Shown piece by piece: positions 129 through 27,690 of a DNA stretch of 64,000 bases. How positions within the stretch are numbered: position 1 is the stretch's first letter; every line of letters begins with the position of its first letter. Under the pieces are notes generated by a model. That model ran no database searches. It was not told the origin of the DNA and was given only the letters and a program-made list of their open reading frames with translations. Source of the stretch: Candidatus Methylomirabilota bacterium (GTDB taxonomy: Bacteria > Methylomirabilota > Methylomirabilia > Methylomirabilales > Methylomirabilaceae). The stretch is taken from the NCBI GenBank assembly GCA_003104975.1, contig PQAM01000006.1:1-64000 (forward strand), written 5' to 3'. The position numbers and the translations under genes were made by a program.

Positions 129-413
129 ATGGTTACAGTCCATTGCAATGGATGCGGGCAGGAGATCGAGCTTCCGGCGGGGACGCGCTCAGGCGACATC
201 ATCGCCTGTCCTAACTGAGCGGGCCTCTCGCTCCGGGTGAGCGAGCAAGACGGTAACTGGTCAGCCGTGGTGCTCAAGACCGCGAGTTGCGCCGTCGGAG
301 ATGAAGTCGTCGTCCTTCCTGATGACGTGCGGCCCGGCGATATCGTTGAGTGCCACGGGATCACGCAACGGGTGACCTATGCTTACGGCGCCTATGCGCT
401 TGAGAAGATGTGA
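129..413 (+). CDS. Small zinc-ribbon-like protein with in-frame UGA (CPNU), candidate selenoprotein
   Basis: Reading ATG 129 to TGA 411 gives 94 residues if the UGA at 216-218 is decoded. The protein begins MVTVHCNGCGQEIELP and continues to IIACPNUAGLSLRV, so metal-ligand pairs are CxxC (residues 6 and 9) and CxxU (27 and 30), the layout of a zinc ribbon in which the last cysteine is selenocysteine. Coding character is unchanged after the UGA, with a sensible C-terminal half (SCAVGDEVVVLPDDVRPGDI) that runs to within 3 bases of the merT start. A 7-bp hairpin follows the UGA. Its function is unknown; position directly upstream of merT and merP suggests a role in metal handling. The alternative, a pseudogene broken by one nonsense mutation, is less likely given the same pattern in six other genes here. 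Confidence 0.75.
227..245 (+). promoter_or_regulatory. Putative bacterial SECIS hairpin for the zinc-ribbon UGA
   Basis: A perfect 7-bp stem CTCGCTC/GAGCGAG encloses loop CGGGT. The loop begins 15 nt after the UGA at 216-218, near the usual spacing for SelB-binding elements, and contains G residues. Confidence 0.6.
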
Positions 414-416
414 GGT

Positions 417-857
417 GTGAGAGACATGCGAATACCAGATGTGAAGTCCGGCTTTTTTGGGATGGTGTCCGCGGCCATCGCTTCACTCTGCTGTCTCCTG
501 CCGCTTGCGGTGATTGTGCTGGGGCTGGGCAGCGGGGCCTTCATGATGACCACCATGCAGTACCGGGCCATCTTCATCCCGGCGGGGATCATCGGGGTCA
601 GTCTCGGCTGGGCCTTTTATCTTCGTGAGCGCAAGCGATGCAATGCGCTTAGTTGCAGGATGTCAGGTGGACGATTGAATCTGGTATTCCTCCTGCTTGC
701 AACTGTTATTGTGGCCGGAGCCGTCGCACTGGACCAACTCCCGAACTTCACCGCCGACCTGCTGATGCGCGTCACATCCGGTGGGTCGGATACCATGCCG
801 ATGTCCGGCTCCGCAGTGGAGCATTCCAACATGAACCATGGAGGTGGGACCCAATGA
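417..857 (+). CDS. merT: MerT-like mercuric ion transport membrane protein
   Basis: Small inner-membrane protein of 146 residues if the GTG at 417 is used (ATG at 426 is the alternative). It has a first transmembrane helix containing the vicinal pair SLCCLLP (C25-C26), a second helix, then a cytoplasmic loop with CNALSC (C75 and C80) and a third helix. MerT proteins carry exactly such a CC pair in helix 1 and a second cysteine pair in the cytoplasmic loop, which relay Hg(II) from periplasm to cytoplasm. The C-terminal tail after helix 3 is longer than usual and rich in Met and His (MPMSGS, HSNMNHGGG), which could bind metal. Its stop overlaps the merP start (ATGA). It keeps cysteine while its partner MerP uses UGA. 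Confidence 0.8.
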   Translation: MRDMRIPDVKSGFFGMVSAAIASLCCLLPLAVIVLGLGSGAFMMTTMQYRAIFIPAGIIGVSLGWAFYLRERKRCNALSCRMSGGRLNLVFLLLATVIVAGAVALDQLPNFTADLLMRVTSGGSDTMPMSGSAVEHSNMNHGGGTQ

Positions 858-1162
858 AGGCTACGCGTGAGTACGATCGACGCACCTTCCTTTTCTGGGG
901 AATGGGAGCATCGCTTCTTCTGCTTCTGAGGGAGGCGACGGCCTCAGAGACCGCCGTCGTACGCCTGCGGATTGACGGCATGACGTGAGGCGCCTGACCC
1001 CTCGTGGTCAAGAAGGCCCTGGAAGGGCTGAAGGGCGTCACAAGCGCAGAGGTAAGTTTTAAGGACAAGCTCGCGCGCGTCACGTATGAGCAAGGCGTCG
1101 TGACCATCGAGCAAATGATCGAAGCGGTACGCAAGGCCGGGTTCCAGGCTAGCTTACAGTAA
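854..1162 (+). CDS. merP: MerP-like periplasmic HMA protein with UxxU motif, candidate double-selenocysteine protein
   Basis: ATG 854 to TAA 1160 gives 102 residues if two UGA codons (986-988 and 995-997, residues 45 and 48) are read through. The N-terminus has an RRTFLFWG stretch before a hydrophobic core, resembling a twin-arginine signal, and AxA-like sites before the mature part. The mature part is a complete heavy-metal-associated domain: VVRLRIDGMTUGAUPLV, then KKALEGLKGV, SAEVSFKDKLARVTYE and MIEAVRKAGFQA. In MerP and other HMA domains the motif is GMTCxxC, so both metal-binding cysteines are replaced by UGA, giving UxxU. Replacement of exactly these two residues and intact coding before, between and after them argue strongly for selenocysteine. 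Selenolates bind soft metals such as Hg(II) or Cu(I) more tightly than thiolates. Translationally coupled to merT. Confidence 0.85.
1015..1029 (+). promoter_or_regulatory. Putative SECIS hairpin for merP
   Basis: Stem GGCCCT/AGGGCT (five Watson-Crick pairs plus a terminal G-U) with loop GGA. The loop begins 23 nt after the second UGA and 32 nt after the first, so one element could serve both codons. Confidence 0.45.
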
Positions 1163-1190
1163 ACCCCTTGCAGAAGCCGCCAATGCCGGC

Positions 1191-1350
1191 CTAGTACTTG
1201 ATTGCAATAATACCCGTAACGTCATTCCCGCAGTCCTTAAGCGGGAATCCATTGTTTTTACTGGATACCCGCTCCCCGCTTTAAGCCTGCGGGGACAAGC
1301 TTCGCGGGTATGACGGTTTATGTGCGCTAACTTTCGCAAGTAAGCACTAG
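1191..1350 (+). repeat. MITE-like repeat, left copy (160 bp)
   Basis: The element starts CTAGTACTTGATTGCAATAA and ends with CTTTCGCAAGTAAGCACTAG. Its reverse complement matches the element at 15061-15193 almost base for base, apart from about 27 extra bases inside one internal hairpin. It contains two GTCATTCCCGC/GCGGGAAT-type hairpins. There is no coding content. It lies between the end of merP and the end of the barrel gene on the other strand. Confidence 0.85.
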
Positions 1351-1410
1351 ACTCGTGCCGGTTCAATGGGATTAAGATAAGTCTGTGCAGGATGCGCCAA
1401 GAAGGTCTGC

Positions 1411-2316
1411 TCAGAACACACCCCGAAATCCCCAGATTACGATCACGTCGGGCTTCAGGCCCAAGGGCCGCTCGAGGCCTCGGCTGATGGGGAGTTCTAC
1501 GGCTGCTTCAATGAGCCACTGTGGACCGAGAAAATACTGGAAGCCCGGGGCCAGGAAGAACTCGGTCCCGCCGGACTCGGACACGGAGGTGCCCCCAACT
1601 CTGTCCTCGGTTGCCGTCGTCCCCACCAGCTCCAGGCCCACATTAAACTGGGAGAGGTCCGGGATCGGCCAGTCGGGAAAGAGCTGATATTGAACAGTGA
1701 GGTCATAGGATACCATATCCCCCGCCTTGAACCCTCGTGCCGCGCTGTTGACCTTGCCCAACGCCCCGAGGTACAGTCCCCACCGCCGGCTGATCGAACC
1801 CAGATTGAGCCCCACCAGGCCATCGACCGAGCCTGACCCTGGCTGCAGGGCAGGCGGAAGCCTTCCTTGCGCATCGCGACGCCCGCTGTCACCCGTTGGA
1901 AGCTTCAGGCCGCCCAGCAGCGTGGCCTCAATGGTTCCATGGGGCCTGTCCTGCCGGAAGAAGCGGTAGAGGCCGAAGAGGCGAAGATCCCCGACCCCCT
2001 CGGCGCCACGCTGGCGGCCGTCCTCCAGCGTGAGATTTTTTGAGACATAGGGGAGACTCAACGCTACGTTGAGATCGCGGCGAGGGGAATAGAGCGCCAA
2101 GACTGGGGCCTCCCAGATGGTGAGGCGATTGCCTCCGTCACTCAGACGGGTGTACACCCCGAGACCCCGCACGGCTGTTCCAAGGGAAAAGAGCGTGGTA
2201 GGCCCGACGCCGACAATCGGATCAGCGAAGCTCGGGTCCGGCCCTGACACCCAGCAAACAGCAACCCATCCGAGAACGCGGATCCACCGACCTCTCCTTC
2301 CGTTTTTCGTTGCCAT
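1411..2316 (-). CDS. Outer-membrane beta-barrel protein, MetA/phenol-degradation transporter-like
   Basis: 301 residues with an N-terminal signal peptide (hydrophobic stretch to about residue 31, ending in SFADP). The rest alternates short polar turns and amphipathic strands (for example LSLPYVSKNLTLEDG, LYLGALGKVNSAARG, IEAAVELPISRG) and ends in an aromatic F, all typical of an outer-membrane barrel. It resembles the family annotated as transporter or putative MetA-pathway of phenol degradation. The start codon overlaps the stop of the HMA selenoprotein gene (TAATGG), so it is translationally coupled to it and to the upstream P1B ATPase. A plausible inference is the outer-membrane step of a metal export route. 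The substrate cannot be read from the sequence. Confidence 0.65.
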   Translation of the reverse strand: MATKNGRRGRWIRVLGWVAVCWVSGPDPSFADPIVGVGPTTLFSLGTAVRGLGVYTRLSDGGNRLTIWEAPVLALYSPRRDLNVALSLPYVSKNLTLEDGRQRGAEGVGDLRLFGLYRFFRQDRPHGTIEATLLGGLKLPTGDSGRRDAQGRLPPALQPGSGSVDGLVGLNLGSISRRWGLYLGALGKVNSAARGFKAGDMVSYDLTVQYQLFPDWPIPDLSQFNVGLELVGTTATEDRVGGTSVSESGGTEFFLAPGFQYFLGPQWLIEAAVELPISRGLERPLGLKPDVIVIWGFRGVF

Positions 2317-2825
2317 TACTGGACCTCAAATCGCTCAACCTGCGCCCACTCCTTCTCTTTCGGGATCATCCCTACGATGCTCACGCGCCTGCCATCCAAC
2401 TTCGCGGCCTTCCGCAGTGTCTCAAACTGCTCATCGGCCACAAGCGGGATGACTTGCTCCGTTCCCCGCACTTCGAATGCCGGACTGCCGTCTCGGGTAG
2501 TAAGCCGACCTACCGCCTCGAACCGGATCCAGGTCGGCGTAAACCCTGCATCCACGACGAGCTTCCTGAGCTTCTCCACCTCGAGTCGCTGGCCTTCCTT
2601 GAGCTTAATCTCTACCTGCGCCAACTCCAAGCTGACCTTTACCTTGTCCACGCCATCCAGGCGTGTTAGGGCCTTTCGGACCCCGTATGCTCAGGTGGCT
2701 CAGACCATCCCATCGACACCCATCTGGACCTGCTTGATCTCAGCCACGGTCAACGCGGGAAACGCTAACGCCAGGACCACAGCCAATCCGATCACAGCGG
2801 AGACCTGCGTTATTCGCTTTCCCAT
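2316..2825 (-). CDS. Exported HMA-domain protein with UxxU motif, candidate double-selenocysteine protein
   Basis: From ATG at 2825 (RBS GGAGGAGCGGT) to TAA at 2316 the frame encodes 169 residues if UGAs at 2700-2702 and 2691-2693 are decoded (residues 42 and 45). A normal signal peptide (MGKRITQVSAVIGLAVVLAL to about residue 30) precedes an HMA segment VQMGVDGMVUATUAYGVRKAL, then TRLDGVDKVKVSLE. This is the GMxCxxC motif of metallochaperones with both cysteines as UGA. After the HMA domain comes a second domain of about 80 residues (IRFEAVGRLTTRDG, EVRGTEQVIPLV, LDGRRVSIVGMIP) that looks OB-fold-like. It lies between the P1B ATPase and the barrel gene in one operon, so it may be a periplasmic acceptor of metal exported by the ATPase. 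The family of the C-terminal domain was not recognised. Confidence 0.82.
2649..2665 (-). promoter_or_regulatory. Putative SECIS hairpin for the HMA-Sec gene
   Basis: Stem CACGCC/GGCGTG (6 bp) with loop TGGAT, loop starting 31 nt after the second UGA, which is at the long end of the accepted spacing. A weaker alternative closer to the UGA (GGG-T-CC, loop GAAA, around 2672-2684) is also possible, so the true element is uncertain. Confidence 0.35.
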
Positions 2826-2864
2826 ACCGCTCCTCCTTTCTTAAGCCTCTACGCTGGAAGACAT

Positions 2865-5294
2865 CTACGAGTGATGCCCGACCCCCTTGATGGCCTCGAA
2901 GAAGTAGGCGCCTCGGCCCCACAGGGAATTGATGAAGATCGACGTCACGCTGGCCGCCATGGCCACCATGCCCCAGATGGGGTAGATCAATCCTGTCGCG
3001 GCGGCCGGAATCCCGACACCGTTGAACAGGAATGCGAGGAAGACGTTTTGCACCATCTTTCGGTAGCTGTACCGGCTGACCTCGTAGGCGTCGAGCACGG
3101 CGCCCAGCCGCTGGTTGAGGATGATCACATCGGCGGATTCGATGGCGATGTCGGCGCCGCTGCCGAAGGCGATGCCGACCTCGGCCTGCATGAGCGCCGG
3201 CGCGTCGTTGATCCCATCGCCAACCATGGCCGTACGGGCGCCCTGCTGAAGCGTGCGGATCATCGTCGCTTTCTCGGCCGGCAGCACGCGCGCATGCACG
3301 TCCGCGATGCCGGCGGCGCGGGCGAAATAACGCGCCGCCTCCTCGTTGTCGCCGGTGATCAAGCTTGTTCCGATGCCGAGCGCATGCAGGCGGCGCACCG
3401 TCTCCACTGCGTCGGGCCGCAGACCGTCGCCGAGCGCCAGCAGGCCCAGCAGTTCGTCTCCCCGCGCCACGCCGATCACGGTCAGCCCTTCCGCTTCGAT
3501 CGCCTTGATACGTCCGTCCTGCGGCTGCAGATTGACGGCGTGGCTCGCGAGAAAATCCGGGCTGCCGACCAGCACCCGCGAATGGTTAAGACGCGCCCGG
3601 ACGCCCTGACCCGCCACAGCCTCGAATTCCTGTACCTCCGGAAGCGCGATGCCGCGTTTGGTCGCCGCATCTACCACGGCGCGAGCCAGCGGGTGTTCAG
3701 ACCCGACCTCTGCAGCCCCAGCCAGCACGAGCAGTTCCTCTTCCGAGCACGCCAGCGGAACGATCGCCCGTAACGCGGGGCGACCCTCGGTCAGCGTCCC
3801 GGTCTTGTCGAAGACCACGCACTGCACCCGTCGCAGGGCTTGAAACGCCTCACCCGTGCGCATCAGCACGCCGCGTTCGGCCGCCTGACCTGCGCCCCGC
3901 ACGATCGACAGCGGCGCCGAGATCCCCACCGCGCAGGGATAGCCCATGACCAGCACACTCAGGCCGGCAAACATCGCTCGGCGCAGATCGGGGGCGGATC
4001 CGACGACCAGCGGGCCGAGCGCCCACACGAGGGTCGCGCCGGCCGCGGTGAGCAGCACCATCGGGGTGTAGACGCGCAGCACACGGTCCACCAGGTGCAG
4101 CAGGCCTGGCTTCAGCGCCCGCGCGCCTTCGACACTGCGGATCACCTGCCGGAGGAAACTCTCCTCACCCACCGCCGCGACCCGCACCAGCAGCGTGCCG
4201 CGACCGTTGAGGGAACCGCTCACCGTCCGGTCGCCCGGGCGCTTCTCCACGGGGAGCGGCTCGCCGGTGACGAGGGATTCGTCCACATCCGATTCACCCG
4301 ACTCGACCTGACCGTCCACCGGGACCCGCCCGCCCGGTCGAATGCGGACCACGTCCCCGATGCGCACCGCTTCGAGCGGCACTTCTTGCTCCGTACCATC
4401 CTTGACGATAGAGGCCACGTCAGGCTCCAGGTCCAGCAGCTTCTTGACCGCCTGCGAACTGCGGGTTTTCACGATCAGCGACAGCCATTCTGAGAAGATG
4501 TGATAGGCAAGGACCATCACGGCCACCGAGAAAAACGCGGTCGTCGGATAATCCGGCAGGTCGAAAGTCAAGCCGACCACGCCGCCGATCAGTCCTGCGA
4601 AGGCCCCGGCCTCAACGAGCACGTGCTGGTTCAGGATGCCGCGCCGCAGCGCCATGAAGCCCATGCGCGCAATGTGCCCACCCACGCCGAAGATGACGGT
4701 CAGGGCGAGCGCGCCGGCGAGCCACGGCGTGGCGCCGCCGAACGCGCCGCGCAACTGGAGAGCGTAGGTGCCTGCCCCGAATGCAGCGAGCAGGGCCGAG
4801 CCCGACAGCGCCCACCGCACGCCATAGCTGCGCAGGACCACGAAGGAGAACCCCACCATGCTCGCGATCGAAAACACACAGAGCACGAACCACGCGCTAT
4901 CGATCGGGTACCCGGCCAACCCCATCGCGGCGATGCTCATGGCCAACGCGGCGAGGAAACGCTCGCGCTCGCGCACCAGCGCGCGCTCTTCTTCCTCACA
5001 CGCACGCAGCTTGCGCGGATCGGAGATGGTGTAGCCGATATCCTTGAGCGTCTGCAACAGCTCCTCGGCTCTGGCAAGCGCGGGGTCGTACTCGATAAGC
5101 GCTTGTTCATGGGTCAGGCTCACCGCGACCTTGTCCACCCCGGTCTGCTTGCCCAGTGCCCGCTCGATGGTGCCGGTACACAACGAACAGTGCAGCCCGC
5201 CAATATGGGCGCGGATTCGCCGGTGGCCTGGTCGTTTCGAAGGCTCGTCGCTCCAGAAGCGCTGTGTAGATTCAACGGTCATTTCCATGCTCAT
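2865..5294 (-). CDS. P1B-type heavy-metal-translocating ATPase (Cu-like) with YPC motif
   Basis: 809 residues from ATG 5294, chosen because GGGAGG precedes it and it lies just after the merR stop. The N-terminal HMA domain has GLHCSLCTG (C36, C39), here with normal cysteines. P-type signatures are all present: [12 protein letters not shown] (actuator), [11 protein letters not shown] (phosphorylated Asp), SEHPLARAV (HP motif of the nucleotide domain) and [13 protein letters not shown]. The transmembrane metal motif reads MGYPCAVGI, so the usual CPC of Cu ATPases is YPC. The last helices contain LFNGVGIP and [12 protein letters not shown], which resemble the Cu/Ag group, and the protein ends GVGHHS. 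Expected to export a soft metal ion from the cytoplasm. It shares an operon with merR upstream and the UxxU protein and barrel downstream. The exact metal is not certain. Confidence 0.88.
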
Positions 5295-5305
5295 GTGTGC
5301 CTCCC

Positions 5306-5719
5306 TTACTGCTTTCTCCCATCCGATGCGAGGGTCTCCAGGATCGGACACTCGCTGGTGGGGCCGCGACCTCGACAGGCGGCAGCCAGCTTCATCAGCG
5401 CCGTCTTCATCTGTTCCAGGTCGCGAACCTTTGCGTCGATATCGGCGATTTTGGCTTGCGCTCGCCTTTTAATGTCTGCGCTCGTCGTCTCGGGATCGAT
5501 ACGCAGAGACAGGAGTTCCACGATTTCTTTCAACGAGAACCCCAACTCCTGCGCGCGCCTGATGAACCGGATCCGCTCGACGGCCTCGAGGGGATACTGA
5601 CGGTACCCGGATTCGCGTCGAGGCGGCTCGGGTATGAGCCTTCGCCGCTCGTAGTAGCGAATCGTTTCGATATGCACATGGGCTTGCTTCGCCAACTGCC
5701 CTATGGTCAATGTCTGCAT
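5306..5719 (-). CDS. MerR-family metal-responsive transcriptional regulator
   Basis: 137 residues with the MerR winged-helix start ([35 protein letters not shown]) and a long dimerisation helix. The effector end has AACRGRGP and SECPILETL, corresponding to the two C-terminal Hg ligands of MerR (Cys117 and Cys126). The position of the third ligand, Cys82, is Ser in PETTSADI, so the classical three-cysteine Hg site is incomplete. It could therefore sense another ion or bind metal differently. It is the first gene of the operon with the P1B ATPase, 11 bases upstream of that gene, and a MerR-type operator precedes it. Confidence 0.85.
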
Positions 5720-5741
5720 GTCCTCACCTCAACTCAATTAT

Positions 5742-5773
5742 AAGATAGACCCTGCACCTAGGTACGGAGTCAA
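5742..5773 (-). promoter_or_regulatory. MerR-type promoter/operator upstream of merR
   Basis: On the minus strand TTGACT (5773-5768) and TATCTT (5747-5742) are separated by 20 bases, the overlong spacer typical of MerR-controlled promoters. The spacer holds a dyad centred on CCTAGG: GACTCCGTACCTA against TAGGTGCAGGGTC, matching at 10 of 13 positions. The left arm TTGACTCCGTAC is very close to the classical mer operator as I remember it. It lies 23 bases upstream of the merR start, so the regulator should control its own operon. Confidence 0.75.
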
Positions 5774-5858: not shown

Positions 5859-6968
5859 TCACGGTTGGAAGTGCGAAGGGATGGGTGATGAAGCCCGCCA
5901 GAGTTGGGTCTGGGGATAAAACCCCTTCCACGCAAACCAGAAGGCCCTGGTGGTTGGGAGCTGGCGTAGCCGGCTGCCGCTGAGCTGACCTTTGATGGCC
6001 GTGCCGGTGAGCGCCTGCCACGTTGAACCGGTTTGCCGGTCCTCCATCACCAGGTCGCCGTTCACCTCACGCAAGCTCGTAAACTCCAGGACCCGCTCCC
6101 CCATTCGCCTCGCGAAGGCCACCGCCGTCGCCTCTTTCGCCGAGAAGGCCACCAGGATCGGTTCGCCGCTCACCATATCCTGCACGAGGGGCTGGCGGTT
6201 CAGATCGCGATAGGGATAGGCGACTCGCGTGTCGCCCAGACTCAATCCCAGGACGAACTCCTTGCCGGGGAGGACGGCGTCCGGATTCCTGGTTCTGAAG
6301 ATCCCCAGCTTCGCCTGGTCTTCGAAGTAACGCTGGTAGGTGTTACGGGTTCCCTCGACCCCGAAGGCGCTCTGCTTCGAGAGGACGAGGGTATCAGGAT
6401 GGAGCCGTCTCCACTGCTTCCAGGTGGTGTGGGAAGCCGGATAGGGTGTCAAGGTCTGCCCTCTCAGCGGCCCGACAATGGCGCTTCCTGTGACGTGGCT
6501 CCAGAGGCTGTCGGTTTCGCGATCATACATGACCAAGGCGTCCTTCCAAAGCCGTCCACTGACCCCGAAGGTGATCGGCTTGCCCTGGTGCGTCGGCCGG
6601 ACATACACGATGCCCGTAAAGCAGAGGGGTCACCAGGTCACGGCAATGGGGAGGGTCCCGAGCTGGTCGTTCACAATCTCATGGTGGTTGAGTTGCCAGA
6701 GTGAGTAGGCCTTGGCGACCTTCCCATCGGTGAGGCCGAGGACCGGCTCCTCCGGCTGCATGACCCGGTCGCCCTCGGTAGCGGAGACGAACGTGGGATG
6801 ATCAATGGCGGGGATCGCGTCTTTCGGTAACACGGTCATGATGGGTGCGCCGTTCACAACCTCACTGAAAGGCCCCGCCGTCCCCGCCAAGGCCGGACCC
6901 GAACCCCCCATCGAAGCCGCGAAGGCCACTAAGCCCACGAAAAGCCACTTCCACGTTCTCCGTACCAT
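5859..6968 (-). CDS. DUF3179 protein with in-frame UGA in the TxCPLC motif, candidate selenoprotein
   Basis: 369 residues from ATG 6968 (preceded by GGAGGATGAA) to TGA 5859 if the UGA at 6630-6632 (residue 113) is decoded. It has an N-terminal signal peptide with a hydrophobic core, ending about GPALAG. The central signature reads LPIAVTWUPLCFTGIVY; the DUF3179 family has VTYCPLC at this place, so the first cysteine is UGA. The rest carries family features: FGVSGRLWKDALVMYDRET, SLWSHVTGSAIVGPLRG, and the DAVLPGKEFVLGL and DRQTGSTWQALTG repeats. The function of DUF3179 is unknown; a CPLC or UPLC pair suggests a redox or metal-binding site in the periplasm. It is the last gene of the long minus-strand series that starts at arsM. 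A 7-bp hairpin follows the UGA. Confidence 0.82.
6598..6616 (-). promoter_or_regulatory. Putative SECIS hairpin for DUF3179
   Basis: Stem CGGGCAT/ATGTCCG (seven pairs, one G-U) with loop CGTGT containing GU. The loop begins 20 nt after the UGA at 6630-6632. Confidence 0.5.
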
Positions 6969-7190: not shown

Positions 7191-7192
7191 CA

Positions 7193-8611
7193 CTAGCCAA
7201 GACGCATGAGCAACTGAAGGAACCCCTTGAGCGGCCCACTGAACAGCTTTTCCCGGTAGTACTGATCGGCCGCCCGGCGCACGCCCTCGGCGAGGGTGGG
7301 GTAGGTATGGATGGTCTGTGCGAGCGCGCCGACCGGGAGCCCCTTCCGCATCGCGAGGATCACCTCCTGGATGAGGTCGCCGGCCTGAGGGCCCAGGATA
7401 TGGGCTCCCATGATCTTCCCCTTCGGCGTACAGACAAGCTTTATCAGGCCTACCGCCTCCCCGTCGCAGAGGGCTCGGTCCAGGTCTCCAAAGCTGTACC
7501 GATAGACCTTCACATTTCCGAACTGCTCCCCGGCTTCGACCTCGGTTAAGCCGACCCTGGCCACCTCGGGATCGGTGAAGGTGCACCAGGGGACGGCTGA
7601 ATAGTTCGCCTTGCTCTTGAACGGAAACAGCGCATTGCGGACGACCAGACGGGCCTGATACTCTGCCACGTGGGTAAAGAGGAGCTTCCCTGTGATGTCG
7701 CCACAGGCCCAGATGTTCCGAGCGGTGGTCCGTAACGTTTCGTCCACAATGATCCCCTTACTGTTATAGCTCACCCCTGCCGCCTCGAGGTTCAACCCCT
7801 CCACATTCGGCCGCCTGCCGGTCGCCAGGAAGATCTCCTCGGCCCTAAAGGTCACCGCTACACCGCTGCACTCTCCGTGGACAAGCTTCTGAGTTCCATC
7901 CTTCTCTACTCGAAATGCCTTGGTGCAGGTGTGGATGTCGATCCCCTCAGTCCGGAGGATCGCCTCCAGCGCCTGGGCGATCTCTTGCTCTTCCCGAGGC
8001 AGGATCTGCCCCACCACCTCCAAGACTATTACCCGGACGCCAAAGCGCGCGAAGAGCTGGGCGAACTCGATTCCAATGGGCCCTGCCCCCAGGATTACGA
8101 CCGATCGAGGGAGATGCGAAAGCGTCAAAGCGCTGACGTGGTCTAGGAAGCCGACCTCCTCCAACCCCTCAATCGGAGGGACAGCAGTCCTTGAGCCGGT
8201 GGCGATGACGACCTTCTTGGCGGCAATCCGCTCCCCTCCAACCTTGAGCTCTGTAGGGGAGAAGAAGCTCGCCTGGTCGGAAAAGAGCGTGACACCGAGC
8301 CCCTTAAACCGCTCCGGGGAGTCGTGCTTTCCTACCTGCTGTTGCACCTGTCGCATCCGGTCCATCACCTTCACAAAATCGAAGGAGACCTCGGGCGTAT
8401 TCAGGCCAAAATCGGCTGCCCGGCGCATCAGGTGCAGGACTTTCGCGGAGCGGATCAGGGCCTTGGAGGGGACGCAGCCCGTGTGTAGGCATTCGCCCCC
8501 AAGCCGGTCGCGCTCGATGAGCGCGACCTTGACGCCGAGGGACGCAGCGCCGGCAGCAGTCACAAGCCCCGCCGTACCGCCCCCGATCACGGCAAGATCA
8601 AAGGTGTCCAT
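7193..8611 (-). CDS. MerA/dihydrolipoamide-dehydrogenase-like flavoprotein disulfide reductase
   Basis: 472 residues of the class I pyridine nucleotide-disulfide oxidoreductase family. It has an N-terminal FAD site (LAVIGGGTAGLVTAAGAA), redox-active pair GGECLHTGCVPSKAL (C41 and C46), an NAD(P)H site (VVILGAGPIGIEFAQ), second FAD motif (NIWACGDITG) and C-terminal dimer motif HTYPTLAEGV. It lacks the N-terminal HMA domain and the C-terminal vicinal cysteine pair that define mercuric reductase, and ends in FLQLLMRLG. It is therefore a MerA-related reductase of unproven substrate; another disulfide, selenide or metal compound is possible. Its start overlaps the stop of the glycosyltransferase gene (TGATG). 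Confidence 0.85.
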   Translation of the reverse strand: MDTFDLAVIGGGTAGLVTAAGAASLGVKVALIERDRLGGECLHTGCVPSKALIRSAKVLHLMRRAADFGLNTPEVSFDFVKVMDRMRQVQQQVGKHDSPERFKGLGVTLFSDQASFFSPTELKVGGERIAAKKVVIATGSRTAVPPIEGLEEVGFLDHVSALTLSHLPRSVVILGAGPIGIEFAQLFARFGVRVIVLEVVGQILPREEQEIAQALEAILRTEGIDIHTCTKAFRVEKDGTQKLVHGECSGVAVTFRAEEIFLATGRRPNVEGLNLEAAGVSYNSKGIIVDETLRTTARNIWACGDITGKLLFTHVAEYQARLVVRNALFPFKSKANYSAVPWCTFTDPEVARVGLTEVEAGEQFGNVKVYRYSFGDLDRALCDGEAVGLIKLVCTPKGKIMGAHILGPQAGDLIQEVILAMRKGLPVGALAQTIHTYPTLAEGVRRAADQYYREKLFSGPLKGFLQLLMRLG

Positions 8612-9336
8612 CAGATCCTCCTTGCGCTTGAAGCGGGCCGTTTAACATCCGATGAAGGCGCGTGGCCGTAGTAGAGCCGGTAGAGTAGATCAGAGCCCAC
8701 ACCGACGAAATAGAGAAAACGAAGAGTCCACATCAGCAGGATGATCCGGAAGATTCCCTCCCGCTCCCACTTCCGCGCCGATGTCGTGACCTTCGAGCGA
8801 AGACATGCCATCCTCCCCATCTTTTTCAGCCGTTTCGTCAGCTCCACATCTTCCATCAAAGGGATGTCAGGATACCCTTCCAACTCTTCGAATGTCTGCC
8901 GTCTCACAAAGAGGGCCTGATCACCGGTGCAGATCTTCGTGAGGCGCGAGCGAAGGTTGATAAAAAAGGCGATGACCGTGAAGACCGGGCGAGGATTATC
9001 AAATCGGATGTCGAAGCGTCCAGACACAATATCGGGATTGCTCACGGCTTCAAGGATCGCCGCTTCTGCCCCGGCAGGCAGGAGCGTATCAGCATGGAGG
9101 AAGAGCAGGCTCTGCCCCTTCGCCACCTTCGTGCCTGCGTTCATTTGCCTGGCCCTCCCCCGCTCGCTCGAGAAGAGCCTCACATGGGGAAACCGGCGCA
9201 CAACCGCGCTGGTCTCATCCTCACTTCCCCCGTCCACGACAATGACTTCGACCCCGGGGCAAACCACCCGGAGATGCGGAAGCAGGCGCTCAAGATTCTC
9301 TGCCTCGTTGAGGACCGGAATGATCACGCTTAGCAT
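8611..9336 (-). CDS. Family 2 glycosyltransferase, TIGR04283 type (rSAM/selenodomain-associated)
   Basis: 241 residues. The GT-A start MLSVIIPVLNEAENLERLLP, the nucleotide-sugar part VEVIVVDGGSEDET, and ERGRARQMNAG and LLFLHADTLLP identify the short glycosyltransferase group named transferase 2, rSAM/selenodomain-associated (TIGR04283). The motif YPDIPLMEDVELTKRL and a C-terminal membrane-contacting stretch (IFRIILLMWTLRFLYFVGVG) complete it. That family is named for co-occurring with radical SAM proteins and selenium-containing domains, which agrees with the selenoproteins and ArsS in this operon. Substrate unknown; arsenosugar or envelope glycan modification is a guess. Confidence 0.85.
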   Translation of the reverse strand: MLSVIIPVLNEAENLERLLPHLRVVCPGVEVIVVDGGSEDETSAVVRRFPHVRLFSSERGRARQMNAGTKVAKGQSLLFLHADTLLPAGAEAAILEAVSNPDIVSGRFDIRFDNPRPVFTVIAFFINLRSRLTKICTGDQALFVRRQTFEELEGYPDIPLMEDVELTKRLKKMGRMACLRSKVTTSARKWEREGIFRIILLMWTLRFLYFVGVGSDLLYRLYYGHAPSSDVKRPASSARRI

Positions 9337-9348: not shown

Positions 9349-10113
9349 CTAACGGTCCCCGCTTTCCACCGACCGGAGCACAATGTCGTCGTAGTACGCC
9401 ACAGCGGACTCACCGGTATTGTCGGTGTCGGTCATCAGCGCGATACCGGCGATCCGAGGAGGTTCTGCGCCGAAGAGGCGCTTATAATCGGCATAGAGGT
9501 TTCGCTCCTCGAGCACCCACCGCCCCACGTTTTCCGCCCTACTCTCCACAGCGATCATCTTCGCCCGATCGGTGTAGGCGTTATCGATGGCCGTTCCCCT
9601 GGGGAGTCGGTTGTCCCAGATGTAGTTAATGACATGCTTTGGCGGGTACTCGCCATAGATGAGCTTGTAAGTCCCATAGCTGGTCCTCTCCCAGAGTGTG
9701 GCGTTTCGAGCGTCATACTGGAAGGCCACGTACACGCGAGCTGGGTAGTCGTCGCCTTCTTTGCGGCGGGCATCTCCCTTGGCGAGGATATTCTCCACCT
9801 TCCATCGCCAGGAGAGGATCTGGTAGACCTTTGGATCGAGGTCCAGCGCCTTGTACAGGCCAGAAGCCGATGCATGGCTTTCCGCTTTCACGATGTAGTT
9901 GTCACCCTCCTGAATCACGGTGTAACGGGTCTTCGCAGGGATCTTCCGGAATGTCAACGATGTCCAGCCGTGGGGTAGGCCCCCTGGATCGGTTGGAGGG
10001 CCGAATCGGTCCACCACCAGCAGTTCCCCGCCAAGACCCCAGGCGACCGCACAGAGCGAGAGTACGGCGACAAAGGCGGAGGTGTAGATGATGCTCCGTT
10101 GTGCTCTTCTCAT
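9349..10113 (-). CDS. DUF3047 exported protein
   Basis: 254 residues from ATG 10113 (ATG 10137 is also possible but would overlap the TVP38 stop by 17 bases). It has an N-terminal signal or anchor (IIYTSAFVAVLSLCAVAWGL). The body matches DUF3047 in pattern: VVDRFGPPTDPGGLPHGW, then SASGLYKALDLDPKVY, ILSWRWKVENIL, YPARVYVAFQYD and IAGIALMTDTDNTGESA, ending with YYDDIVLRS. The fold is likely a carbohydrate-binding-like beta sandwich; no enzyme function is known. Located between TVP38 and the glycosyltransferase in the same operon. Confidence 0.75.
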   Translation of the reverse strand: MRRAQRSIIYTSAFVAVLSLCAVAWGLGGELLVVDRFGPPTDPGGLPHGWTSLTFRKIPAKTRYTVIQEGDNYIVKAESHASASGLYKALDLDPKVYQILSWRWKVENILAKGDARRKEGDDYPARVYVAFQYDARNATLWERTSYGTYKLIYGEYPPKHVINYIWDNRLPRGTAIDNAYTDRAKMIAVESRAENVGRWVLEERNLYADYKRLFGAEPPRIAGIALMTDTDNTGESAVAYYDDIVLRSVESGDR

Positions 10114-10120
10114 CACCGGT

Positions 10121-10831
10121 TCACCGCAGCAGGTCATCCGTGGCTGGGCTGGTTTTGTTCAGCCATCGGGGAATAAGCGTAACCAAGACCAGCAAGGCCC
10201 CCGCAATCCCCAGGTAAAGCAAAGTCCGCTGTATGTCCCCGCCCCCTTCTGAGAGGGCGCCACCGGCGAAGGTGTAGGCCGCTGTCCCTGGCAGCATGCA
10301 AGGCCAGGAGGTCAGGAGATGGCTCCAGAAGCCGATCCGGGTTAGACCGTAGGCGTAGTTTTGAAGGTTGAAGGGAAACAGGGGGACGAGACGGGTAATC
10401 ATGACAATCTGCCAGCCGTACCGGGCCACCGCCTGGTCGATCTTCGCGAGCCGGCGGTTCTCCGATACCCACCGCTCCACCATCCCCCTCGCGCCATAGC
10501 GGGCGATGAGGAAGGTGAGCGCCACGCCGATAGTGGAGGCGATGGAGACATAGACGGTTCCCCAGATGGGACCGAAGGCGACGCCACCCAGGACCGTGAT
10601 CGGGAGGCCAGGCACGAAGAAGATGACCGCCAGGATGTAGCCCGTGATGAAGACGAGGGGAGCTAACGATCCAAAACTGTCGATCCACACCTTTAGATAG
10701 GCAAGATTTTTCAGGCTGAGGATCTCCTGGAGGCCGAAGGCCCTGGCCAGGAACGCCCCTGCCAGGACGATCCCCGCCAGCAGGAGCAACCGTTCCCACG
10801 GTCTTTTTGACCTGTGAACGACTTCACTCAA
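10121..10831 (-). CDS. TVP38/TMEM64 family membrane protein
   Basis: 236 residues with about five to six membrane segments. The signature VMITRLVPLFPFNLQNYAYGL, then GFWSHLLTSWPCMLPGTAAY, is the conserved region of the TVP38/TMEM64 (SNARE-associated, DedA-related) family. Members are thought to act in lipid or small-molecule movement across the inner membrane, but the substrate is not known. Its ATG overlaps the last codons of the GrdB-like selenoprotein gene, so the two are translationally coupled. Confidence 0.85.
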   Translation of the reverse strand: MSEVVHRSKRPWERLLLLAGIVLAGAFLARAFGLQEILSLKNLAYLKVWIDSFGSLAPLVFITGYILAVIFFVPGLPITVLGGVAFGPIWGTVYVSIASTIGVALTFLIARYGARGMVERWVSENRRLAKIDQAVARYGWQIVMITRLVPLFPFNLQNYAYGLTRIGFWSHLLTSWPCMLPGTAAYTFAGGALSEGGGDIQRTLLYLGIAGALLVLVTLIPRWLNKTSPATDDLLR

Positions 10832-11621
10832 AGCGATGCCTCCTCCACCGATACCCCGGCTCCAGGATGGTCCCCGGTTCGGTCATGGTCTCCAGGGCCT
10901 GCAGCGCATCAAGCAGGATCGTGCGCTGCTGCTTGACAGCAAAGGCTTCGCCGAGGGGATGGCCGAAAGGGTAGTGAAGGTAAAGGGCCCGTGGCGGCTT
11001 CACCTTCTTCGTCACCTCTTTCTGGAGCGTGATCCCGATCGTCGGAATCCCTTCCGCCTCGATGGCACGCTGCAGCAGGCCCACGGCCTGGTTGCAGAGC
11101 CCTCAGGCCGGGGTGAGGACCACAGCCTCTGCCCCGTCGCGCCGCAGGCGACGCGCTACCTCAGGTGCGGTCTGCTGTACCAGCGTCTTCACGTGCGGGC
11201 CGTCAATATGCCCCATGAAGCCATAGACAAAGGGGGCGATCCCCCCGATCAGCCCTTCGGCCTTGAGCTCCTTCAGTCGGTCCAAGGGCAGGACCACATT
11301 GAGATCTTTGTCTGCCGCTGAGTGGTCATAGTATTTGTGGGTGATCGTCAGCTCTTGTGGCTTTGTGTCCGCCGAAATGACTCGAAAGCTGGGATCGCCG
11401 TTCGGATCGTCCATGTCAAAAGGGGGTTGAGCCTTCAGGTGGACCCCCGCCGTAGTCACGAGGCCGATCACACTCTCTCGAATCGGCTTCTTCACAAGCG
11501 TCCACGGGATCCCTTCCGTCTCCACGAAACGATGGCGCCTGGCCCAGCGCTCGGAAAGCCAGGGCAGACGCTTGTAGAGCTGCACCATCAGCACGTTGGT
11601 CAGATCCTGAAGCCGTCCCAT
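10824..11621 (-). CDS. Short GrdB-like (glycine/sarcosine/betaine reductase family) protein with in-frame UGA, candidate selenoprotein
   Basis: 265 residues from ATG 11621 if the UGA at 11103-11105 (residue 173) is decoded. The region VARRLRRDGAEAVVLTPAUG followed by LCNQAVGLLQRAIEAEGIPT matches the selenocysteine region of selenoprotein B (GrdB/PrdB), where a UxxC pair follows a strand ending in T. Other family features are RVISADTKPQELTITHKYYD, LPLDRLKELKAEGLIGGIAP and YPFGHPLGEAF. It is much shorter than classical GrdB (over 400 residues), matching the group annotated as glycine/betaine/sarcosine/D-proline reductase family selenoprotein B. It lies between the PiT transporter and TVP38, so reductive cleavage of a C-As, C-Se or C-N bond in an arsenic- or selenium-linked pathway is possible; this is inference. 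Confidence 0.85.
11070..11097 (-). promoter_or_regulatory. Strong putative SECIS hairpin for the GrdB-like gene
   Basis: Lower stem CTGCA/TGCAG (5 bp), a small internal loop (AC against C), upper stem CAGGCC/GGCCTG (6 bp) and apical loop GTG. The loop starts 18 nt after the UGA at 11103-11105. This is the best bipartite SECIS-like structure in the window. Confidence 0.7.
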
Positions 11622-11643: not shown

Positions 11644-12771
11644 TCAGGCGACCCGTTGCAACAGGACGTAGATGCCTGCCGCCACTAACGCCGCGACCGG
11701 AAGCGTGATAACCCAGGCCAGCACGATATTCCGGACCACACCCCATTGAGCCTTGCCGTTGCTGGCGCCAATCCCGAACAGCGCCCCGCACGAGACGTGG
11801 GTGGTCGAGACCGGCAGACCCCACCTGGAGGCGAAGATGACCAGAAAGCTCGTCACGAGATTCGCGATGACCCCCTGGTCGGCGTCCATCGCGGTGATCC
11901 GTGTGCTCACGGTCTCGGCCACGCTCCGCGCATGCAGCAGCCCGCCCAAAGCCATGAACAACGCGACCAGAGACGCCCCCCACGTGAGGTCAACACTTCC
12001 CGCTGCAACACCCAGCGCGACGATCTTCGGGGTATCGTTGAGCCCTCTGGCAAAGCTCACCGCCCCTGCGCTCAGGTAATGGACGCCGTCGAGGACGGTC
12101 TGGGCACTTACGCCCATCATCGTACCGGTATAGCGCCGCCGGCACCCCTCCGCTTCATCCAGGACGACACGAAGGGGCGTTGTCCCAATGGGCAGGTGAC
12201 GCCCTTCAGCGGTCGTGGCGACGGCAACGGGCACAAATTCCTCCCCTACACAGAGACAGGCCTCTTTTGTGATGCCTGTCCAATTGGCCGCAAGCCTGAA
12301 CAGGGGGTACGCGAGCAACGCCAATCCCACGGCCAGTAATGGGCTCACCATGAGCGGTTTCAAAAAGTTGGTCCACAGCGTCGAGAAACCCAAATCGAAT
12401 CCCACTGCCACAAGGCCGGTCCCGATCATGGCGCCGGTCAGACTGTGGGTGGTCGAGATGGGCGCCCCAATCTTGGTTGCCAGGGCCACGGTGAAGGCCG
12501 CACCCAGGATGACGGCCACGAGAAACGGCTTCGACCCTGCGAGGGCGGCGGGGATCAGACCACGTCCCCCAAACGTCTGGATCAGCGTTGTGGCAACAAA
12601 CGCGGCGGCCACTGAACCGGTAAGCGTTGCCCCCGTCGCCAACCAGAGGGCCTTTCTGTAGGTCGTCGTGCCGCTCCCAAAGAGGGTGGCCACCCCCTTA
12701 AAATTGTCATTGGCCCCGTTGGCATAGGCAACGAACATCGACGCCGCGAATAGCAGTACCGTCCAAGGCAT
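11644..12771 (-). CDS. PiT-family inorganic phosphate transporter
   Basis: 375 residues from ATG 12771, preceded by AAGGAGCACGCAT. The two PiT signatures occur as an inverted pair: YANGANDNFKGVATLFG near the N-terminus and SFARGLNDTPKIVALGVAAG in the second half, each followed by the GxPxSTTH motif (GAPISTTHSLTGAM and GLPVSTTHVSCGAL). About ten membrane helices with a central hydrophilic loop around residues 180-240. It imports phosphate by cation symport. Placed between arsS and the GrdB-like gene, it could matter for discriminating phosphate from arsenate, but this is not shown. Confidence 0.9.
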   Translation of the reverse strand: MPWTVLLFAASMFVAYANGANDNFKGVATLFGSGTTTYRKALWLATGATLTGSVAAAFVATTLIQTFGGRGLIPAALAGSKPFLVAVILGAAFTVALATKIGAPISTTHSLTGAMIGTGLVAVGFDLGFSTLWTNFLKPLMVSPLLAVGLALLAYPLFRLAANWTGITKEACLCVGEEFVPVAVATTAEGRHLPIGTTPLRVVLDEAEGCRRRYTGTMMGVSAQTVLDGVHYLSAGAVSFARGLNDTPKIVALGVAAGSVDLTWGASLVALFMALGGLLHARSVAETVSTRITAMDADQGVIANLVTSFLVIFASRWGLPVSTTHVSCGALFGIGASNGKAQWGVVRNIVLAWVITLPVAALVAAGIYVLLQRVA

Positions 12772-12782
12772 ATGCGTGCTCC

Positions 12783-19330: not shown

Positions 19331-19876
19331 TCACGCCCCCCACTCAGATTCCAGCTCCACCCCCAAGGCATCGGTGACACGGTTGATATAGTTGAAATAG
19401 CTGGCGATCTCCACCGTATGGAGGATCTCTTCATCGGATACCCCTTTTTCCCGGAGTCGTTGGATCTCGGTTCGAGTCATCGAAGCGGCATCCCGGGTAA
19501 TCCGCTCGGTGTACTCCAGGAGCGCCAATGTCTTCGGGTCGAGGATCGCCTTCCGATAGTCCTCAGCAAGCTGCTTGACCAGCGTGTCGTCCTTCGTCTC
19601 CTGACGGAGAGCCTCTCCGTGGTGGACGATTCAGTAGTGGCACCGATTGATGGATGAGACGACGAGGGCGATCATCTCCCGCTGGGCACGGCCCAATGCC
19701 GCTGGGCCATACATCAGGACCTGGAACATCTGCAGGGTAGCCCCCATCGCCTCCGGATGGAGACTGAAGACCTTCATGATATTGGGGACCATCCCCGTCT
19801 GTTTCCGGAGTCCTTCGTAGAGGCTCTTGAGATTCCCCTGGGCCTCGCGTTCCTCTATCACGTTGATCCATGTCAT
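19331..19876 (-). CDS. AhpD-like carboxymuconolactone decarboxylase-family peroxidase with CxxU, candidate selenoprotein
   Basis: 181 residues from ATG 19876 (RBS AAAGGAGGAGAGGA) if the UGA at 19631-19633 is decoded as residue 82. Before the UGA is REMIALVVSSINRCHY and after it IVHHGEALRQETKDD. AhpD proteins have CxxC followed by xxHH/H here; the second cysteine is UGA, giving CHYU. After it the helical fold continues normally (ALLEYTERITRDAASMTRTE, DEEILHTVEIASYFNYINRV). AhpD-like selenoproteins are an established group. Expected role: thiol/selenol peroxidase reducing hydroperoxides or disulfides. Confidence 0.88.
19604..19620 (-). promoter_or_regulatory. Putative SECIS hairpin for the AhpD-like gene
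   Basis: Perfect 7-bp stem ACGGAGA/TCTCCGT with loop GGC, loop beginning 17 nt after the UGA. It has the same geometry as the TlpA element. Confidence 0.65.
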
Positions 19877-25603: not shown

Positions 25604-25656
25604 ACTCCTCCACTACTCATCAGCCATCGGGCGGCAGCTCTCAGCAATCGGCTATG

Positions 25657-26979
25657 TTACGAGACTGTGATGTCCTCTGTGTAGAGGAGAAAGGATCGCG
25701 CTCGCCCCTCGCGCATAGCCTGCTCCAGCAGCGCCCTGGCCTCCTTCGTTTTAGCCTTCGGCGCCGTGGCTTCGTAGAACCGGATATAGAAATCGTCCGG
25801 CACGATGATGATGGACCCGCGCAGCGTCAGCCCCGCCTGATCGATCGCTCTGGCATAACGAACCGTACGGCTTTCGCCAGGCGCTAACCTGGTGTCAAAC
25901 AGCTCCCGGGTCAGGTCGAGCGTGACCTCCCGACCGATCCGTTCCTCTTGCGCGCTCTGCGCCACCGGCTTTCCATCCGTATCGACCAACTCAAACCGGA
26001 CAACGATCTTCGGTGTGACGTAGGTCGGAAAATAATGCCCAACCCCGGTGTTGACCAGCGTGATCTCAGCGTGAAGTTGTTCCCCGACCCGATACCGCTT
26101 TTTGTCCAATGAAAGGCTGACGGAGACGCCTTGCTTCACCATCTCGGGATCGTGGATCCCTCGCCACAGGTGCCGACGCTCCGGCATATGGCAGCCCTGG
26201 CAGCTTTTCCCTTCCCGCGCATACGACCCCGCTTTCCATTCGTTGTAGGTATCTTCCAGCAGCTTGCCGTTCAGCGCATAGCCGTTCGGCTCGAATTGAT
26301 GGCATCCTTTGCAAAACTCGCTGCGTTCAAAGGCCGCCGTCCTGATGGCGCCGCCGTGCGGCAGTTGCGTCGCCGGAGCGGAGTTCTCGAATGAGCCGTC
26401 TCGCTTCGGCGGTCCGAAACGCTGGTGGCCCCGCACATGGCATCCGGCGCAGCTCAGACCTTTTTGCTGAAGCGAGGTCGAAAAGGCATGGTTGGTCTGG
26501 TATTTGGCGCCGGCGCTCTCCGACCCGCCGGCGCTCTCCCCCAAGCCTGGAGCCTGGCGCCTCTTCTTCACTCGAGACGGTGGACGGCCCTCCTTCTTGA
26601 CGCGCTTTTCCTGCTGCTCACTCAGCGGGGCATGGCAACTGTAGCACAAGAGTGCGGTCTTGGGATCGTCATGGATCAACTCCATGGTCTGTCCCGTCAC
26701 CCCAGGCCCCATGCTCCGACTGTGCAGGCTGCCGCTCCACTCCTCGTACTGGGTTCGATGACAGACGCCGCAGCTTTCCGGCTCCAGCGAACGCTCGATC
26801 GACGAAAAATGCGCCGGGGCCTTGCCTTGAGATGGAACTGGTGTCTGCCAATGATCTTTGAGAAACTCGATGTCCGCATGGTCGTTAACAACCGATCGCG
26901 GGCCGTCGACGGCCCATGCGCCAACCGAATATCCCAGGCAGCCGTTGATCACGACGGCGGCCAGGAGCAACCGTTTCAT
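25657..26979 (-). CDS. Exported pentaheme c-type cytochrome
   Basis: 440 residues from ATG 26979, with signal peptide (LLLAAVVINGCLGYSVGAWA). Five CxxCH heme sites: ESCGVCHRT, LLCYSCHAP, LSCAGCHVRG, EFCKGCHQF and KSCQGCHMPE. The second half (about residues 280-410) is a beta-sandwich-like domain (VSVSLSLDKKRYRVGEQLHA, LVNTGVGHYFPTYVTPK), seen in multiheme cytochromes of the cytochrome c554/hydroxylamine-oxidoreductase-like group. Periplasmic electron carrier or oxidoreductase; substrate unknown. The downstream TlpA-Sec protein could act in heme attachment or cysteine reduction for it. Confidence 0.82.
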   Translation of the reverse strand: MKRLLLAAVVINGCLGYSVGAWAVDGPRSVVNDHADIEFLKDHWQTPVPSQGKAPAHFSSIERSLEPESCGVCHRTQYEEWSGSLHSRSMGPGVTGQTMELIHDDPKTALLCYSCHAPLSEQQEKRVKKEGRPPSRVKKRRQAPGLGESAGGSESAGAKYQTNHAFSTSLQQKGLSCAGCHVRGHQRFGPPKRDGSFENSAPATQLPHGGAIRTAAFERSEFCKGCHQFEPNGYALNGKLLEDTYNEWKAGSYAREGKSCQGCHMPERRHLWRGIHDPEMVKQGVSVSLSLDKKRYRVGEQLHAEITLVNTGVGHYFPTYVTPKIVVRFELVDTDGKPVAQSAQEERIGREVTLDLTRELFDTRLAPGESRTVRYARAIDQAGLTLRGSIIIVPDDFYIRFYEATAPKAKTKEARALLEQAMREGRARSFLLYTEDITVS

Positions 26980-27063
26980 ATTCCTCTGACTCTCGGGGTT
27001 TCCATACGGATGGCCGGCATCAGATCCCCTCATCGGAATCACAGGAGGCTGTTACCTGCGCCG

Positions 27064-27690
27064 TTACTCCTTTCGCGGCGTCCGACTGCCGTCCAGCAGG
27101 ATTTCGATCAAACGCTGAGCCTCCCCACTCGTCCAGTCTCTGGGCCCTATGCTTCCGGCAATCACCTTTCCTTCGCGTGTAATCACGAACCGCGTCGGCG
27201 TAGCCCGAACACTATAGCGATCGGCGACCTGAGATTTCAGATCGACCAGAGTTGGGAAGGTCAACTTGTGCGTGAGCATGTAGCTGCGGATCTGATCGGC
27301 CGGCTCACCCATATTCACCGCCAGGACGATAAAATCCCTCGTCTTGAACTGTTGGTACAGCCGTTCAAGTGAGGGAAACTCCCTCAGGCAGTACCCTCAC
27401 CAAGTAGTCCAGAAGGTGAGAAAAACGACCTTCCCTCGCTGATCGGCCAGTCGGATCGATTGTCCGAAAGGATCCTGGAGCGTAAAGTCGGGGGCGCTTA
27501 GGTCGTTCTTGAGCACGATGAACCCGAGGGCCTCCAACGCACCCTCCAAGCTGACGGGCGCTCGGCCTGCCCAGGCGTGGGGGGCCGATATGGCGGCAAG
27601 GGTGAAGCCGACCGAGAGCATACCGAGCACAGCCAGGCGCTTCACAAGGCGGACGCCGACAGACCCTCTGGTGCCCCTTACCCGGATCAT
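27064..27690 (-). CDS. TlpA/ResA-like thioredoxin with UxxC active site, candidate selenoprotein
   Basis: 208 residues from ATG 27690 if the UGA at 27397-27399 (residue 98) is decoded. A signal peptide (LGMLSVGFTLAAISAPHAWA) precedes the fold: APDFTLQDPFGQSIRL, then GKVVFLTFWTTWUGYCLREF, and PTRFVITREGKVIAGSIGP with the cis-proline. TlpA-like proteins have WCxxC; here the first cysteine is UGA, giving WUGYC. Thioredoxin-fold selenoproteins of this kind are known. It lies upstream of the pentaheme cytochrome in transcription, where apocytochrome thiol reduction is a natural role (inference). A perfect hairpin follows the UGA. Confidence 0.9.
27370..27386 (-). promoter_or_regulatory. Putative SECIS hairpin for the TlpA-like gene
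   Basis: Perfect 7-bp stem TGAGGGA/TCCCTCA with loop GTT, loop beginning 17 nt after the UGA. Confidence 0.7.

Follow-up and report, generated by a model that had tools for sequence, protein, structure and literature searches.

A selenoprotein gene island among mercury- and arsenic-type genes in a Methylomirabilota genome

Nine in-frame UGA codons within 28 kb of bacterial DNA raise the question of whether they are read as selenocysteine (Sec) and, if so, whether the genes that carry them serve a common purpose. They lie in the first 64,000 nucleotides (the window) of contig PQAM01000006.1 from a Candidatus Methylomirabilota bacterium (assembly GCA_003104975.1), whose phylum is also known as NC10. 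An earlier note, made from the sequence alone, had assigned these UGAs to seven genes, in or next to cysteine (Cys)-type motifs and with every frame continuing to a normal stop, and had seen in their unusual concentration a selenium-based metal/metalloid defence or redox system. The window forms the first part of a contig of 161,849 bases (C6) in a genome of 3.0 Mb and 19 contigs, and the 60 nearest genomes all fall within one class. Because the genome holds a complete Sec machinery, Sec and Cys alternate at the UGA columns, hairpins fixed in position track Sec and gene order is conserved in a second copy, we consider it very likely that the locus is a genuine selenoprotein island, in which the UGAs of the seven genes and of an eighth are decoded as Sec by SelB and tRNA-Sec at a hairpin. 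Comparison with homologous sequences strongly supports the selenoprotein interpretation of the earlier note; its overall interpretation, defence system included, is supported in part.

In-frame UGA codons and their decoding

All nine UGAs were confirmed. They belong to seven genes of the stretch 129-27690 and lie at positions 216, 986 and 995 on the forward strand and 2702, 2693, 6632, 11105, 19633 and 27399 on the reverse strand. The seven frames all run on to a later stop, and in every gene the Pfam match spans the UGA. Six of the genes encode known kinds of selenoprotein. The MerP-like HMA protein (854..1162, +; PF00403, E 5e-16) carries two Sec in the motif GMTUGAU (UGAs 986-988 and 995-997), at columns that read 34U/4C and 36U/4C/1G (U, Sec; C, Cys) in homologues of less than 90% identity, from which all column counts were taken. 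A secreted HMA protein (2316..2825, -; PF00403, E 2e-11) likewise carries two, in GMVUATU (UGAs 2700-2702, 14U/7C, and 2691-2693, 18U/3C). The DUF3179 protein (5859..6968, -; PF11376, 296 bits against a cut-off of 27) has TWUPLC (UGA 6630-6632; 16U/1C/1S); its named public relatives are mostly metagenome-assembled genomes (MAGs) of Candidatus Methylomirabilota or Methylomirabilis, with four of Neomarinimicrobiota. The PrdB/GrdB-like protein (10824..11621, -), above the cut-off for the GrdB-type domain (PF07355, 41.5 bits against 22), has PAUGLC (UGA 11103-11105; 38U). Down to 30% identity, nearly every relative of this protein has one TGA and no more; only a C-terminal fragment departs from this. 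The same genome has a third PrdB-like gene (G000:C5:23370-24023), also with one UGA, of a distinct clade (43% identity) that is widespread in the phylum. The AhpD/CMD-family protein (19331..19876, -; TIGR01926, 160.8 bits against 81.8) is of the CxxU type, with CHYU (UGA 19631-19633; 11U/2C), and the TlpA/ResA-like thioredoxin-fold protein (27064..27690, -; PF00578, E 2e-28) has WUGYC (UGA 27397-27399; 11U/27C). The remaining gene (129..413, +; PF21344, 31.0 bits against 27) encodes a tandem LysW-like zinc-ribbon protein with CPNU (UGA 216-218; 36U/4C). Over the nine sites, homologues carry UGA or Cys with two exceptions only, Cys/Sec pairs being found at the UGA columns, and similarity continues downstream of the UGA, with no tendency of homologues to stop there.

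When TGAs in any frame were screened in two islands of this genome, 41 of 650 were at least 90% U/C, and all nine sites were among the 41. The rest comprise the counterparts in the second island, one new glutaredoxin, ordinary conserved stops and shadow frames; TGAs such as those at 10830 and 13454 are shadow frames or true stops and not Sec sites. A C-terminal CCPU in the ArsM-related gene was tried as a tenth site and rejected, as its frame enters arsS, whose start lies just behind, and the codon is a stop. The draft state of the genome is all that favours pseudogenes or sequencing errors with chance UGAs. This reading is of negligible probability and is refuted, because dozens of independent genomes, like a second copy in the genome itself, have UGA at the same codons.

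A glutaredoxin gene, cut by the contig end, is an eighth Sec gene. Bases 1..99 (+) encode its C-terminal end (frame 1, KLGYRATPVTVIDGEVVVGFDRGKLQRLLGLS*; Pfam Glutaredoxin, E 5e-12), and its UGA would lie beyond the contig end. The intact copy elsewhere in the genome reads VYSQAGUGSCHQEKEFLS, with U in 41/41 homologues.

The Sec decoding set, selA, selB, selC and selD, is complete in the genome. SelB is of full length (380 bits, cut-off 242); the tRNA-Sec (selC, anticodon TCA) scores 65 bits, above the family cut-off; selD (412 bits) carries an in-frame UGA of its own; and selA (591 bits) is present in a single copy at C6:134375-135739. Since selA lies on the same contig as the island, that contig can be argued to belong to the genome with the other Sec machinery.

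A genome-wide change in the meaning of UGA to another amino acid, such as codes 4 and 25 have, or a suppressor tRNA that reads it could also yield nine in-frame UGAs in 28 kb with no frameshift. Such a reading has next to nothing left in its favour. UGA ends many genes, which refutes it. These include four of the seven Sec genes (LysW-like, DUF3179, PrdB-like and AhpD), which have a further UGA as stop, so recoding must depend on context. Moreover, long neighbours such as an 809-aa ATPase and a 1100-aa RND pump have no internal UGA, the in-frame UGAs stand at Cys columns only, and both tRNA-Sec and SelB are present. It is slightly less improbable, and still highly unlikely, that UGA is read as Cys, through an unusual tRNA-Cys(UCA) or an altered SelC, and that the proteins contain Cys in place of Sec. 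UGA-to-Cys recoding is known in other bacteria, and all the positions are Cys columns. Against this, the only tRNA with a UCA anticodon in the scanned part of the genome is the tRNA-Sec above its family cut-off; selA, selB and selD are complete; and the hairpins described below track UGA.

Hairpins downstream of the UGA codons

A hairpin with a G-containing loop after each UGA had been part of the original proposal. All nine sites do pass a permissive single-sequence test, as do 50 of the 63 Cys and 95 of the 150 random codons tested; with 63-79% of such controls passing, we rejected this search as evidence, and single-sequence hairpins are uninformative in DNA of 60% GC. The comparison across homologues, by contrast, is strong. 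The published criteria for a bacterial Sec insertion sequence (SECIS) are a G in the first two loop positions, a distance of 16-37 nt past the UGA and at most -7.5 kcal/mol. Our strict rule called for at least 4 contiguous pairs, a loop of 3-9 with G[G/T] at loop position 1-2 and at most -7.5 kcal/mol. Summed over families, 118 of 122 Sec homologues have such a hairpin, the position of the G loop is largely fixed, and the distance from loop to UGA is constant within most families.

In six families the hairpins lie inside the 16-37 nt range. They follow the MerP UGAs (1015..1029, +; loop TGGAA; 18/19 Sec homologues), the second UGA of the secreted HMA gene at 31 nt (2651..2663, -; loop TGGAT; 12/12), and the UGAs of the DUF3179 (6598..6616, -; loop CGTGT; 14/15), PrdB-like (11076..11090, -; 30/30), AhpD (19605..19619, -; 9/10) and TlpA genes (27370..27386, -; 11/11). 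With spacing from 16 nt, the rule was passed by 62 of 400 random codons and by none of 27 Cys homologues of TlpA. Compensatory stem changes occur in PrdB at pair 19-27 (GC15/TA13/AT2) and in TlpA at pairs 14-30 (TA/AT) and 16-28 (AT/CG).

The LysW-like hairpin (227..245, +; loop CGGGT) fails at spacings of 16 or more. When shorter spacings are allowed, 24 of 25 homologues pass, always at 15 nt, at a setting (from 12 nt) where 109 of 600 random codons and 2 of 27 Cys TlpA homologues also do; in a fuller set at spacing 15, it is found in 28/29 Sec and 1/9 Cys homologues (Fisher P 2e-6, relatives not being independent). The Rfam SECIS_1 model gave no matches here and none in its controls and is thus uninformative, and an Rfam scan of window bases 1-30000 returned nothing relevant. 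Taken across homologues, the alignments indicate that conserved SECIS-like hairpins track Sec and not Cys.

A LysW-like zinc ribbon with selenocysteine

The earlier note had spoken of unknown families. This was overstated for most of the genes and holds for the CPNU gene, whose zinc ribbon had gone unrecognised. The LysW-like family is present in 35 of 95 genomes of the phylum, and its 40 full-length matches divide into 29 with UGA and 11 without. In an alignment of 27 sequences, ligands 1 (C6) and 3 (C27) are invariant, while there are 25 U and 2 C at ligand 4, and 14 U, 12 C and 1 R at ligand 2. All-Cys forms hold two complete ribbons (CPDC..CPNC and SCPxC..CCG), whereas the second ribbon of most Sec forms has lost two ligands (C57 to G, C76 to H); intermediates combine U30 with a complete second ribbon. 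No relative was found on plasmids.

The ancestor was probably a zinc protein with two ribbons, in the first of which Sec would have taken the place of ligand 4 and, at a later stage, of ligand 2, after which the second may have lost its two ligands. As judged from the alignment, these losses suggest that a structural zinc protein turned towards redox chemistry or the binding of soft metals. The protein is probably a new selenoprotein family. We think it fairly probable that the CPNU gene founds such a family, defined by a tandem LysW-like ribbon with Sec at ligand 4 (in other families of the order also at ligand 2, as CxxU...CPNU), a second ribbon short of two ligands and a place in one operon with a Sec glutaredoxin, MerT and a Sec-containing MerP, and that a structural zinc site would thus have become a selenolate site for soft metals or redox chemistry.

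Alternatively, the protein might have kept a LysW/ArgW-like role as carrier of zinc or amino groups, in which Sec would be another ligand for zinc. Its AlphaFold model (predicted local distance difference test score, 90) has LysW 3vpb as best PDB match (probability 1.00, root-mean-square deviation 1.2 A over 45 columns, E 0.01), which together with the PF21344 match speaks for a carrier. The mer-type neighbours speak against it, as does the NCBIfam LysW score of 49 bits against a cut-off of 75; no NCBIfam model reaches its cut-off for this protein. In addition, the tails end in YALEKM and similar sequences, and EDWGE, the C-terminal motif of LysW, was not seen in them. A carrier role therefore appears unlikely to us, and a selenolate site is preferred.

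The series from an eight-Cys double ribbon through Cys/Sec to Sec/Sec makes this an unusually clean case for asking why Sec is placed at a metal-ligand position. The accessible text of the catalogue of Zhang et al. 2026 (PMC13188914) contains no LysW-like CxxU/CPNU ribbon, and in a literature search outside Haft and Tolstoy 2025, Zhang and Gladyshev 2007 and Deng 2026, neither LysW nor "zinc ribbon" was relevantly combined with selenoproteins.

Gene order, possible function and known systems

Apart from AhpD and TlpA, the Sec genes are set in three sub-operons together with genes of metal and arsenic type. In the first, the glutaredoxin and LysW-like genes are followed by a MerT-like membrane protein without Sec, ending in a TGA stop (426..857, +; NF010314, E 2e-8), and by the MerP-like gene. 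The second consists of a MerR-family regulator (5306..5719, -), a heavy-metal P1B-type ATPase of 809 aa (2865..5294, -; TIGR01525, 538 bits against 346) and the secreted HMA protein. It is preceded by a MerR-type promoter/operator-like sequence with a long spacer, TTGACTCCGTACCTAGGTGCAGGGTCTATCTT (5735..5770, -), which we take to resemble the known mer operator; a search for such operators over the window gave 34 matches with 23.7 expected, little excess besides this site. The MerR model scores best for the regulator (TIGR02051, 142 bits against 151) with CueR close (132 bits), so that Cu/Ag is a possible ligand as judged from these models.

The third sub-operon runs, on the reverse strand, from an ArsM-related methyltransferase without Sec and with a TGA end (13760..14986; NF040538, 357 bits against 500; NF008823, 198 against 263) through the Cys form of the arsenosugar radical SAM protein ArsS, which has no UGA (12783..13745; TIGR04167, 440 against 300), and a phosphate/sulfate permease-like transporter of PiT type (11668..12807; NF053884, E 3e-22, below its cut-off) to the PrdB-like gene. 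A VTT-domain membrane protein (10139..10822; PF09335, E 2e-25), a DUF3047 protein (9349..10110; PF11249, E 2e-79), a TIGR04283 arsenosugar-biosynthesis glycosyltransferase (8614..9336; 271 bits against 182), a MerA-like flavin adenine dinucleotide oxidoreductase (7193..8611) and the DUF3179 gene complete it. The oxidoreductase stays below the MerA cut-off (TIGR02053, 418 against 454) and ends in ...FLQLLMRLG without the C-terminal Cys pair. The mer and ars setting described in the earlier note was thus borne out for MerT/MerP/MerR-like proteins, the ATPase and the arsenosugar operon, while a true MerA was not found.

Between the AhpD and TlpA genes, on the reverse strand, lie a sigma-factor-like and a zinc-finger anti-sigma-like protein, judged by eye (21827-22728), the hopanoid C-3 methylase HpnR (24067-25603; 870 bits against 650) and a multihaem cytochrome without UGA (25660-27042), with a weak match to the ExtKL (seleno)protein family (68 bits against 250).

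Most of the island recurs in the same order in the same genome (G000:C10:307900-328000; 77-94% protein identity), with intact Sec glutaredoxin, LysW-like, MerP, HMA, DUF3179 and PrdB-like genes, and parts of the order recur in the relatives G012, G013, G010, G002, G007, G029 and G025. Since the LysW-like protein of the window is 96% identical to that of G012 and 84% to that of the second copy, an old duplication or exchange between relatives is indicated, not a recent copy. In G007, one contig (C48, 50.5 kb) has some ten Sec genes within 50 kb, among them further HMA (UPDT, CSLU, CKGU) and TlpA (UPYC, UPHC) forms.

Soft selenolates bind Hg, Ag, Cu(I) and As(III). From this chemistry and from the neighbouring genes, we judge it somewhat more probable than the contrary that the island's products handle soft metals and arsenic, and the gene context makes a metal/metalloid defence or redox system plausible. 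In the envelope, the UxxU motifs of the MerP-like and HMA proteins could hold a soft metal by two selenolates and hand it on to MerT. In the cytosol it might pass to the glutaredoxin with its UGSC motif and to the LysW-like ribbon (CxxC or CxxU ... CPNU), acting as chaperone and reductant, and export would fall to the MerR-controlled ATPase and its HMA partner. For the arsenosugar operon, the PrdB-like and DUF3179 proteins may act as Sec reductases, and we would guess at a reductive step on an organoarsenical for the PrdB-like protein beside ArsS; AhpD and TlpA could supply general redox support.

Several points weigh against the island as we describe it. The genome is a draft and the island begins at a contig edge; the homologues are mutually related, so the counts are not independent; Sec in the products is predicted from DNA sequence; the loop of the LysW-like hairpin, at 15 nt, falls one below the published range; and the MerR, MerT (PF02411, 29.5 bits against 32.9, hence MerT-like only) and MerP-like models score just under their cut-offs, with MerA proper missing.

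The strongest alternative accepts true selenoproteins and denies them a functional system, unrelated Sec genes having come together by chance in a genome rich in them and the link to metals being a coincidence. AhpD and TlpA do stand 4-12 kb away from the ars operon, with unrelated neighbours (HpnR, a sigma factor); in relatives the parts occur apart, as LysW-MerT-MerP, ATPase-HMA and the arsenosugar operon with PrdB; and a Methylomirabilota MAG is credited with 63 Sec genes, the highest count for the phylum in the accessible text of PMC13188914. Yet the three sub-operons keep Sec genes beside metal or arsenic genes across genera, and the density is unusual, far above an even spread: at least seven Sec genes in 27.6 kb have a P of about 3e-6 if 63 genes are spread evenly over 3 Mb, a rough value, operon genes not being independent and the 63 being borrowed from another MAG. 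We regard coincidence as possible and a functional metal- and arsenic-handling system as the better account.

The new features are the probable Sec family of LysW-like ribbons, an island that is large and duplicated, and, within an arsenosugar operon, a relative of PrdB that carries Sec. Links of functionally uncharacterised selenoproteins to mercury and arsenic have repeatedly been drawn from motifs alone. Seven or eight Sec genes with metal and arsenosugar genes, present twice in this genome with their order kept, offer a defined gene set for testing selenium in metal handling, in which standard gene callers would truncate or miss each Sec gene.

The arsenosugar operon resembles known ArsM-ArsS-TIGR04283 sets in that ArsS and the glycosyltransferase reach their cut-offs beside an ArsM-type methyltransferase, whose own models stay below theirs; it differs in that ArsS has Cys while its PrdB-like and DUF3179 partners carry Sec. 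With PrdB of D-proline reductase and GrdB of glycine reductase, the PrdB-like protein shares the fold, the UxxC motif (here UGLC) and Sec in essentially all relatives, but it reaches only 181.5 bits against the TIGR04483 cut-off of 300 and belongs to an arsenosugar operon; to our knowledge, the host is not known for Stickland fermentation. The two HMA proteins share with NF041115 (UxxU) and the MerT/CopZ selenoprotein fusions of NF045683 the HMA fold, UxxU in place of CxxC and an adjacent MerT, whereas their scores (92.1 bits for the MerP-like protein, 47.6 for the second) stay under the curated cut-off of 95, so by these models they appear to be divergent members or sister families of NF041115.

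LysW/ArgW (PF21344; 3vpb) and the CPNU protein have the zinc-ribbon fold and CxxC...CPxC ligands in common, and the latter stands apart by its two tandem ribbons, Sec at ligand 4 (ligand 2 in relatives), a degenerate second ribbon, mer-type neighbours and the absence of the LysW tail. In the accessible text of Zhang et al. 2026, Table 1 lists DUF3179 (UxxC/T), the UxxU protein NF041115, a putative mercuric transport protein, AhpD-type CxxU, TlpA-type UxxC, GrdB/PrdB UxxC and SelD, and many of the listed families are tied to Hg and As (PMC13188914). The FmdB-type regulatory zinc ribbon of the same table, with UxxU, is a precedent for Sec at zinc-ribbon ligand positions that differs from our protein in family and motif (CxxU/CPNU in a LysW fold). 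As far as that text goes, operonic clusters reach up to four Sec genes, compared with the seven or eight of the island described here.

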